64,000 bases of DNA from Planctomyces sp. (lineage in GTDB: Bacteria; Planctomycetota; Planctomycetia; Planctomycetales; Planctomycetaceae). The position numbers and the translations under genes are program-made. This document shows positions 7,881 through 10,640 of this stretch, in pieces; within the stretch, counting starts at the first letter, position 1, and each line of letters begins with the position of its first letter. The notes beneath the pieces are model-generated. The model was not told the origin of the DNA and did not search any database. It saw only the letters and a list, made by a program, of their open reading frames with translations. The stretch lies in assembly GCA_019636235.1 (NCBI GenBank), contig JAHBXW010000012.1:1-64000 (forward strand), read 5' to 3'.

Positions 7881-8852
7881 ATGCCTTCCCACCGATTCGC
7901 TGTGATCATGGCCCTCCTGTTGTGCGTCGCCGGATGCCAGCAGCGCGAGGCCGCGACCAGTGCGCGCCCCTCCGCTGCGGCGCCGCCGCCGGTCGCCGTG
8001 AGCAACGGCGCGCCAAAGGCGACCGGGCTGGGCCGCGTGGAAGCGCCGCATCTCCCCAATCCGCAGCGGATTCACGAGAACGTCATCTCCGGGGGCCTGC
8101 CGGAAGGGGACGAGGCCTTTGCGGAACTGGCCGCCCTCGGCATCAGGACGGTCATCAGCGTCGACGGCATGAAGCCCGATGTCGAAGCAGCCCGCCGCCA
8201 CGGGATGCGCTACGTCCACCTGCCGCATGGCTACGACGGCATCCCGGAAATCCGCGGGCAGGAACTCGCGAAAGCGGTCCGCGATCTGCCCGGCCCGTTC
8301 TACATCCATTGTCATCATGGCAAACATCGCAGCCCAGCGGCGGCCGCGGTCGCCTGCGTGGGCGCCGGGCTGATCGACCCTTCTTCAGCCGTGCCGTTCC
8401 TTACTTCGGCGGGGACGAGCGATCGGTACCAGGGACTCTACGCCGCGGCCCGCAACGCGCAGCGGTTTGAAGCGGCCCTGCTCGACGCGCTGCCGGCCGA
8501 GTTTCCCGAGACCGCGACGCTCCCCCCGCTCGCCGAAGCGATGGTCGAGCTGGAACGCGTCCATCACCGCGTCAATCTGATCGCCGCGGCGGACTGGGCC
8601 GCCCCTGCGAACTATCCGGACCTCGACCCGGCCCACCAGGCTCTGCTTCTCCGTGAGCAATACACGGAAATGCTCCGCATGGACGATTTGCAGCAGCAGC
8701 CCGAGGCGTTCCGGACGTTGATGGCCGACAGTGAATCCGCCGCGCTGGCGCTGGAAGAAGCGCTCCGAAGCGGCGACACGTCCGCCGCGGCCGCGGCACT
8801 CGGAGCGGTCAATTCCGGCTGCGCGGAGTGTCACAGGTCGTTCCGGGACTGA
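7881..8852 (+). CDS. Lipoprotein with Cys-phosphatase domain and C-terminal cytochrome c'-like haem site
   Basis: About 323 residues from ATG 7881; ATG 7866 is also possible. The start MPSHRFAVIMALLLCVAGC is a lipoprotein signal with its lipobox Cys at residue 19, so the protein should be anchored outside the cytoplasm. Residues about 55-180 form a dual-specificity-phosphatase-like domain with the P-loop HCHHGKHRS, a CX5R motif, preceded by ISGGLPEGDEAF and VISVDGMKPD. The remainder is helical, with a single CAECH (CXXCH) 9 residues from the C-terminus, the placement seen in cytochrome c'-type four-helix haem proteins. The two domains in one chain are unusual. Target and electron partner are unknown. 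It follows mraY by 72 bases and is convergent with the sulfatase. Confidence 0.75.
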   Translation: MPSHRFAVIMALLLCVAGCQQREAATSARPSAAAPPPVAVSNGAPKATGLGRVEAPHLPNPQRIHENVISGGLPEGDEAFAELAALGIRTVISVDGMKPDVEAARRHGMRYVHLPHGYDGIPEIRGQELAKAVRDLPGPFYIHCHHGKHRSPAAAAVACVGAGLIDPSSAVPFLTSAGTSDRYQGLYAAARNAQRFEAALLDALPAEFPETATLPPLAEAMVELERVHHRVNLIAAADWAAPANYPDLDPAHQALLLREQYTEMLRMDDLQQQPEAFRTLMADSESAALALEEALRSGDTSAAAAALGAVNSGCAECHRSFRD

Positions 8853-8882: not shown

Positions 8883-10640
8883 TCATTCCTCGACGTAATG
8901 CACGTCGACAAAGTACGCCCCGCGAACGTCGCCATTTGCATTCGTCAGCCAGGTGTCCAACGTCCGGCGGTTGAACGCGCCGCCCGCGGCATCGGCGTCG
9001 AGCACGAGCGTCAACGTCGCTGACGTCGCATCCGGATCAATGGCCGCCGTGGCCTCCTGCTCGCCGACCTTCACCCGCGCGCTGGTCGCCCGCAGCGCCT
9101 CGGCCGCGTGCTCGGGTCGCGAGCGCAGCGTGAATCGATACCCGCCCGGCCGGGCGATCTCGACCCACCAGGTTCCATTGGCCAGCGGATCGTTCCGCAC
9201 GTTGTCCTGCATGACCATCACCTGACCCGGCGGCGCGTGCCAGTCGTGCCCCGTGAGCCTCGCGGGGTTCTCGCGAGGATCGCCGATCGCGATCGGCACG
9301 TGGTCGGAGAACACCGGCTCGAGCGACGTCCACCACGCGTCATACGACTCGCGCAAGGTCGCGAGAACGTTCGGATATTCGGCCGCGACGTCGACCGCCT
9401 GGCCCGGATCCGCCGCCATATCGAACAGTTCCCGGCCATTGATCAACCGCCAGCGTTTGGTCATGACGGCCGATTGCCGCCACTTCTCCGGAAACTCGAC
9501 CCGCTGCGAATGCACGAACAACGTCCGCTCGTCGATCGGCGCGTCGTCTCCGCGGAGCGCGGCCGCAAGGCTCATGCCGTCCAGCGGCGGCCCGTCCGTG
9601 CGTTCCAGGCCGCACAACTCCACGAGCGTCGGCAGGATGTCGATGTGGGCCGTCAGCGCGTCGACGTCCCGACCGCCGCCGATGCCCCCCGCCGGCCAGC
9701 GGATGAAGCACGGCACGCGATGTCCGCCGTCGTACTCCGAGCCCTTCAGCCCCCGCATGCCGGCGTTGAATCCCGGCCAGGCGGGAGCGGGTTCTCCGGG
9801 CCGCACTCGCGCCAGTCCTTCGGCGCTGCCATTGTCCGTCATGAAGATGACGATCGTATTGTCGCTCAGACCCAGGGAATCAATGCGATCCAGAAGCCGT
9901 CCCAGGTTGTTGTCGATGTTCGCGATCATTCCGTAGAACGTCGCCATCGGCTCGGGCACGCCGGCGTCGACGTAGGGCTGCTTCCATTCGTCCGCGACCG
10001 TGTACGGAAAGTGCGGCGCGTTGGTGGCGAGATAGCAAAAGAACGGCCGCTCCTGATTGCGTTCGATGAACGCCAGCGCCTCGTCGAAGAAGACGTCGGT
10101 GCAGTATCCCGTGAACTGCTCCGGCACGCCGTTGCGGAAGTAGACATCGTCGAAGTAGTCGTTGCCGAACCAGTCCGGAACCTGGGTGATGCCGCCGCCG
10201 CCATGCGCGACCGATTCCTGAAAGCCGCGTTCGTGCGCCCGCAGCGGCGCGTTGTCACCCAGATGCCACTTGCCGAACTGCCCCGTGCGGTATCCGGACG
10301 CGGCCAACCGATCGGCCAGCGTGACCTCGCTGGCGCTGAGCATCGAGCGCCCCATGATCGTGTGCCACACGCCGGTGCGCGTCGAGTATCGCCCGGTGAG
10401 CAGCGCCGAACGCGTCGGCGCGCATGTCGGGTCGACATGAAAGTCCGTCAGCCGCACGCTCTCGCCATGCAGCCGGTCGAGATGCGGCGTCCGCAGCACC
10501 GTGTTGCCGTGCGCGCTGATGTCGCCGTAGCCCTGGTCGTCCGTGATGACCAGCACCACGTTCGGCGGCGCCGCCAGCGCCGCGCCCGTTTGGCACAACC
10601 CGGCGGCCAGCAATAGTCCGACGGCCAGCAGATGACGCAT
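8883..10640 (-). CDS. Exported Cys-type sulfatase (arylsulfatase family)
   Basis: 585 residues. A signal peptide (about 1-23, ending ALAA) precedes PNVVLVITDDQGYGD, whose Asp pair binds the catalytic calcium. The activation motif is CAPTRSALLTGR at residues 73-84: Cys73 is the residue converted to formylglycine by a sulfatase-modifying enzyme that is not in this window. Further family motifs include GKWHLGD, FMTDNGSAEGL and GLKGSEYDGGHRVP. The last ~130 residues form an extra beta-rich domain. It would hydrolyse sulfate esters, in planctomycetes often from algal polysaccharides. It lies 43 bases after the antiporter gene on the same strand. Confidence 0.93.
   Translation of the reverse strand: MRHLLAVGLLLAAGLCQTGAALAAPPNVVLVITDDQGYGDISAHGNTVLRTPHLDRLHGESVRLTDFHVDPTCAPTRSALLTGRYSTRTGVWHTIMGRSMLSASEVTLADRLAASGYRTGQFGKWHLGDNAPLRAHERGFQESVAHGGGGITQVPDWFGNDYFDDVYFRNGVPEQFTGYCTDVFFDEALAFIERNQERPFFCYLATNAPHFPYTVADEWKQPYVDAGVPEPMATFYGMIANIDNNLGRLLDRIDSLGLSDNTIVIFMTDNGSAEGLARVRPGEPAPAWPGFNAGMRGLKGSEYDGGHRVPCFIRWPAGGIGGGRDVDALTAHIDILPTLVELCGLERTDGPPLDGMSLAAALRGDDAPIDERTLFVHSQRVEFPEKWRQSAVMTKRWRLINGRELFDMAADPGQAVDVAAEYPNVLATLRESYDAWWTSLEPVFSDHVPIAIGDPRENPARLTGHDWHAPPGQVMVMQDNVRNDPLANGTWWVEIARPGGYRFTLRSRPEHAAEALRATSARVKVGEQEATAAIDPDATSATLTLVLDADAAGGAFNRRTLDTWLTNANGDVRGAYFVDVHYVEE

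Follow-up and report, generated by a model that had tools for sequence, protein, structure and literature searches.

Cysteine-dependent phosphatases are well known to be redox-sensitive. Among the four-helix-bundle cytochromes, the haem of cytochrome c′ is five-coordinate, natural cytochrome b562 holds its haem without covalent attachment, and b562 and c-556 have a Met of helix 1 as distal haem ligand. The systems closest to the locus described here carry one or the other of these two modules. TpbA of Pseudomonas aeruginosa is an exported dual-specificity phosphatase of the PTP fold with an HCX5R loop, for which Asp105 is proposed as the general acid (PMC4409338). AtPFA-DSP1 and Siw14 are plant and fungal inositol pyrophosphatases, and AtPFA-DSP1, whose P-loop residues are K154, H155 and R156, is described as an enzyme without a general acid (PMC9038691). 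On the haem side, cytochrome c′ and b562/c-556 are stand-alone four-helix bundles with the haem His near the C terminus, and NaxLS (Kusta0087/0088) of anammox planctomycetes is a cytochrome complex described as NO-binding (PMC11897245).

Here we describe a locus of Planctomyces sp. at which both modules occur in one gene. The window, that is, the whole 64,000-nucleotide stretch analyzed (assembly GCA_019636235.1, contig JAHBXW010000012.1, positions 1 to 64,000), encodes a 323-residue product that, judged from sequence and models, is a real exported two-domain protein joining a Cys-phosphatase fold to a domain with a haem c motif. It resembles TpbA in fold, loop and export and in aligning D119 with Asp105, whereas the matched 162-residue TpbA chain lacks a haem domain. 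AtPFA-DSP1 and Siw14 are alike in fold (Z 14.5–14.8), and the P-loop of AtPFA-DSP1 likewise ends in K-H-R, but their matched chains have no cytochrome and the window member, unlike AtPFA-DSP1, has a candidate general acid. NaxLS, also planctomycete, is structurally the closest match to the C-terminal domain; it is not fused to a phosphatase, and mutant titles indicate a Cys at residue 32 of one subunit where the window protein has Met. Literature searches, with most subscription papers and one superfamily survey outside their reach, returned no description of a phosphatase–cytochrome fusion, and we know of no Cys phosphatase with a covalently attached haem.

Results

A Cys-phosphatase P-loop and a C-terminal haem motif lie in a single open reading frame (Table 1), which bears out the preliminary description of this locus, where a CX5R loop and a CXXCH had been placed in one chain. 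The frame starts at ATG 7881 and stops at 8850–8852, with in-frame alternative starts at ATG 7866 and TTG 7863. AlphaFold2, run for the full chain on a 23-row alignment, gave a mean pLDDT of 87.7 and a pTM of 0.76, with low confidence in the stretch between the signal peptide and the phosphatase domain. The chain had also been called lipid-anchored. This stands for the window member, whose predicted lipobox, VAGC19, was read by eye from the sequence rather than called by a dedicated predictor, but it does not extend to the family: a crude scan of 87 aligned rows (see below) found a lipobox in 49, a hydrophobic N terminus without a lipobox in 32 and neither in 6, so that the predicted lipid anchor is not family-wide.

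Table 1. Features of the fusion gene, given in positions of the window
Feature	Position	Strand	Basis
Whole ORF, exported phosphatase–cytochrome fusion (323 aa)	7881..8852	+	Sequence and homologues
Putative signal peptide and lipobox-like VAGC (Cys19, 7935–7937)	7881..7937	+	Sequence, family N-termini
DSP/PTP-fold domain, residues 55–204	8043..8492	+	AlphaFold2, TpbA Z 15.7, Pfam sub-threshold
D119, candidate general acid, aligned with TpbA Asp105	8235..8237	+	Alignment; D in 57/87 rows
P-loop H143-C144-HHGKH-R150-S151 (HCHHGKHRS, CX5R)	8307..8333	+	Sequence, conservation
Class II cytochrome c domain, about residues 214–323	8520..8849	+	Pfam, models, structural matches
M221, proposed distal haem ligand near start of helix 1	8541..8543	+	Conservation, structural-alignment ranges
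CAECH (314–318), haem c attachment motif, proximal His318	8820..8834	+	Conservation

Catalytic and haem residues are conserved together. Conservation was read from an alignment of 87 distinct rows, one of them the window protein, all picked by a P-loop pattern (L107, which failed this pattern, and L054–L057 were left out). CX5R and CXXCH are kept in 87/87 rows, a figure that for the P-loop reflects the choice of rows by its pattern. The residues invariant in 87/87 are G71, P74, P99, P115, Y118, H143, C144, G147, H149, R150, Y183, G185, M221, C314, C317, H318 and R322. Seven further members, including L107, all have C144, R150 and M221, and five of the seven have CXXCH, with L145 and L150 ending or diverging before the motif at a contig end; L148 lacks R322. 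No conserved Cys besides C144, C314 and C317 was found among the family rows, which argues against a classic disulfide switch. L107 has a divergent loop, TCETGRDR, that retains CX5R, and its stop-free frame (G270:C1:1254496-1255350) runs upstream into an apparent membrane transporter.

The peptide patterns used to fetch loci included the P-loop. With phmmer (E ≤ 1e-10), 116/128 loci match, many of them duplicate fetches of the same genes, and 114 of these, L107 among them, hold a CX5R loop and CXXCH in one frame; the rest, L056 and L057, have the phosphatase alone. The 12 that phmmer left unmatched are L002, a chance find, and 11 loci fetched on weak matches in Verrucomicrobiota, which are phosphatase-only. 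Among 23 family members scanned, Cytochrom_C_2 was detected in 20 and PTP-SAK in 16 (E ≤ 0.01).

The PTP fold of the phosphatase domain is clear from structure comparison, even though the Pfam scores of the window protein are below threshold (PTP-SAK 21.4 vs. a cut-off of 27; Y_phosphatase3 17.2 vs. 22.2). TpbA (4r0s) matches residues 46–204 (Z 15.7, rmsd 3.3, 156 aligned, 19% identity), followed by DUSP23/VHZ (Z 15.6), DUF442 (14.9), Siw14 (14.8) and AtPFA-DSP1 (14.5). In the model, periplasmic TpbA is therefore the nearest fold, within a ranking whose top rows are nearly tied. The candidate general acid is not kept throughout the family: Asp stands at position 119 in 57/87 rows, and 25/87 lack an Asp there as well as an Asp or Glu at 117. 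R150 is followed by Gly in 59 rows, by Ser in 26 and by Ala in 2. The window member keeps both D119 and S151. Given the missing acid and the Gly or Ala after Arg, some members may be something other than ordinary phosphatases. Loss of the acid is nevertheless no proof of lost activity, since AtPFA-DSP1, which shares the K-H-R of the P-loop, works without one.

Assignment of the C-terminal domain to the class II cytochromes is well supported by the CXXCH motif together with Pfam, profile and structural matches. The window protein scores 35.1 bits against Cytochrom_C_2 (cut-off 26.5), and profile matches of the domain reach E 2e-6 for cytochrome c′ and E 9e-5 for cb562. Modeled alone, the domain forms four long helices and one short one (pLDDT 94.5; main helices 217–236, 250–265, 275–297 and 300–322), in agreement with the c′-like four-helix bundle envisaged earlier. 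Neither of the two outcomes that the preliminary description had named as fatal to a haem, a C-terminal region that does not model as a helical bundle or homologues lacking CXXCH, was seen. By Z, the domain lies closest to NaxLS chain A (13.1, over 103 aligned residues at rmsd 2.4); cytochromes c′ reach about 12 and cb562 11.4. The fold alone is not decisive, because unrelated or designed helical bundles also score Z of about 12 and Foldseek, while ranking cytochromes c′ at the top, gives them E 0.028 at best and no match at E ≤ 0.001.

Structural alignments put M221 (domain residue 17) opposite two residues whose positions we take to be those of distal haem ligands, number 7 in cb562 and number 32 in the NaxLS chain, and H318 opposite residue 102 of cb562; these placements are arithmetic from alignment end ranges and, for M221, presuppose that helix 1 starts ungapped. 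The profile alignment instead sets Met7 of cb562 against L224, three residues off M221. The Met-to-His spacing across the family is 91–115, most commonly 97. Structure entries of the NaxLS complex are titled as C32M/C101M and C32G mutants, and we assume that Cys32 sits in the matched chain as a haem ligand. Since the invariant M221 falls at presumed distal-ligand positions, the alignments and model favor a six-coordinate redox haem over the open gas site of a cytochrome c′. Such a haem may bind NO nonetheless, as is described for NaxLS, the closest match by structure.

By sequence matching, the fusion family is mostly planctomycete, and the domain pair, whose wider occurrence in this group the preliminary description had left to be sought, is conserved across many of its genomes. 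A whole-protein query matched 163/392 Planctomycetota genomes (E ≤ 1e-5), a count that takes in partial matches as well as phosphatase-only ones. A cytochrome-only profile (E ≤ 1e-6) gave 139 rows in 137/392 genomes. Compared by eye, 132/139 rows fall at whole-protein matches; the 7 weakest lie elsewhere, are other cytochromes and have no phosphatase domain nearby within the stretches fetched. A related class II cytochrome domain also occurs behind a class I-looking CXXCH domain in one chain (L155:1022-1942 and L157:1023-1976 (-)), an architecture hinting at an electron-transfer role for the class II module.

Outside Planctomycetota the search covered Verrucomicrobiota alone, where 16/288 genomes match; L054 and L055 are fusions, L056–L068 (13 loci) are phosphatase-only, and the sixteenth match, in G538, lies outside this classification. 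Lentisphaeria and Akkermansia appear among the loci as MAG labels. Named strains with fusion loci include Stieleria sedimenti, Neorhodopirellula pilleata Pla100 and TBK1r. The fusion is also found on two plasmids, from Aquisphaera giovannonii and Planctomyces sp. SH-PL62, in copies annotated "dual specificity protein phosphatase" and "hypothetical protein" that both retain the P-loop, CXXCH and the Met in the expected place.

Partial or weak matches numbered 34 loci (20 Planctomycetota stretches and 14 from Verrucomicrobiota). They comprise 4 fusions (L055, L148, L149 and L151), 4 contig-end pieces (L145, L146, L147 and L150), 3 split pairs and 23 phosphatase-only loci, for which the cytochrome domain is absent from the fetched stretch; 18 of these 23 have a loop of a distinct type, HCxHG[AS]DRT. 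In each split pair (L132, L133 and L134) a cytochrome gene lies downstream of a phosphatase gene in the same orientation; their adjacency as separate genes in three genomes is evidence that the two halves work together. The cytochromes of these pairs have their own apparent signal sequence and CXXCH and, by eye, the Met in the expected place. The phosphatases of L132 and L133 have their own apparent lipoprotein signal, and the two genes of L133 overlap by a few bases if the start is GTG. L134 is the weaker case, with a cytochrome match of E 4.5e-4 and a phosphatase frame near a contig end in which other sequence replaces the signal. Behind its first phosphatase-like repeat, the phosphatase ORF of L134 (G143:C171:10428-12952) carries another, which is degenerate.

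Setting aside the fusion gene and a cluster that is mostly its antisense shadow (73/89 ORFs), no neighbor family occurs in more than 7/81 loci. A MraY-like ORF ends 72 bp upstream of the fusion gene in the window; we rejected an operon with cell-wall genes, as neither the MraY-like nor the MurF-like ORF finds a blastp match (E ≤ 1e-5) within roughly 6 kb to each side of the gene, as far as sequence was available, in the other 80 loci. A sulfatase-like ORF (8883-10640, minus strand) is convergent with the fusion gene and has matches nearby in 6/80 other loci (E ≤ 1e-5). The host genome contains a gene of the c-type cytochrome assembly family PF01578. A candidate second copy of the fusion in the host came down to a CcoO-like chance match and a weak, separate cytochrome (L130, G000:C42:146909-147058), an exported protein that matches Cytochrom_C_2 weakly and has CNACH close to the C terminus.

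Discussion

Tentatively, we read the fusion as an exported, redox-coupled Cys-dependent phosphatase of the DSP fold that shares its chain with a class II cytochrome c, a reading that ranks first among the explanations considered even though we put it somewhat short of an even chance. Haem would be attached outside the cytoplasm, with His318 and Met221 as ligands, and would trade electrons with an envelope redox chain. Its redox state would control the C144 thiolate, or keep that thiolate usable, and dephosphorylation of an envelope substrate would then follow the respiratory state of the cell. The conserved fusion and split pairs, the invariance of C144, R150, M221, C314, C317 and H318, the matches to both folds, the retention of D119 and S151 in the window member and the PF01578 gene of the host all count for this reading. 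Against it count the absence of a conserved neighbor pointing to a substrate or partner, the lack of further conserved Cys, the missing acid in 25/87 rows, the Gly or Ala after Arg in 61/87 and the profile alignment of cb562 Met7 with L224.

Second in rank, and unlikely in our view, is an electron-coupled thiol or oxyanion enzyme, in which the P-loop Cys itself performs redox chemistry (sulfur transfer or arsenate-type reduction) with electrons supplied by the cytochrome. A haem domain adjoining a nucleophilic Cys would suit such an enzyme, as would the general acid and post-Arg Ser missing from part of the family, and sulfur transferases of NCBIfam are matched weakly (E 0.007 and 0.04). However, the score against the sulfur transferase family TIGR01244/DUF442 is 13.9 bits vs. 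a curated cut-off of 85.85, the CX5R loop is one residue longer than the aligned loop of the DUF442 chain 3gxg, a second conserved Cys is absent, and no recurrent neighbor family presents itself as a sulfur or arsenic partner (families not annotated singly).

Two further explanations stand behind these. Gas gating, which the preliminary description had put forward, would have a five-coordinate c′-type haem take up NO or CO and thereby switch the phosphatase. It accords with the Cytochrom_C_2 match, the Foldseek ranking and the NO binding described for NaxLS, the closest match by Z, but is weakened by the invariant M221, whose presumed distal position suggests a filled sixth site, and by the presence among Foldseek titles of L16 variants of one gas-binding cytochrome c′, whose Leu16 presumably faces its haem; we now consider it quite improbable. 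Equally hard to credit is acid-independent phosphoanhydride hydrolysis of the AtPFA-DSP1/Siw14 kind with a cytochrome serving mainly in targeting or partner docking: K148, H149 and R150 match K154, H155 and R156 of AtPFA-DSP1 and the fold agrees, but TpbA matches equally well or better, docking alone needs neither an invariant M221 nor an invariant CXXCH, and we know of no inositol pyrophosphates from the bacterial periplasm.

Beyond the redox-coupled phosphatase as such, these proteins might constitute the first known haem-wired family, in which a covalent His/Met haem swaps electrons with the P-loop Cys or the pocket has become that of a redox enzyme, a proposal that we regard as doubtful. 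If true, it would mean that the respiratory chain drives or switches an envelope P-loop catalyst. With its wide spread, its export and its unvarying catalytic and haem residues, the family may be well suited to testing whether extracytoplasmic dephosphorylation in planctomycetes is under the direct control of respiration.
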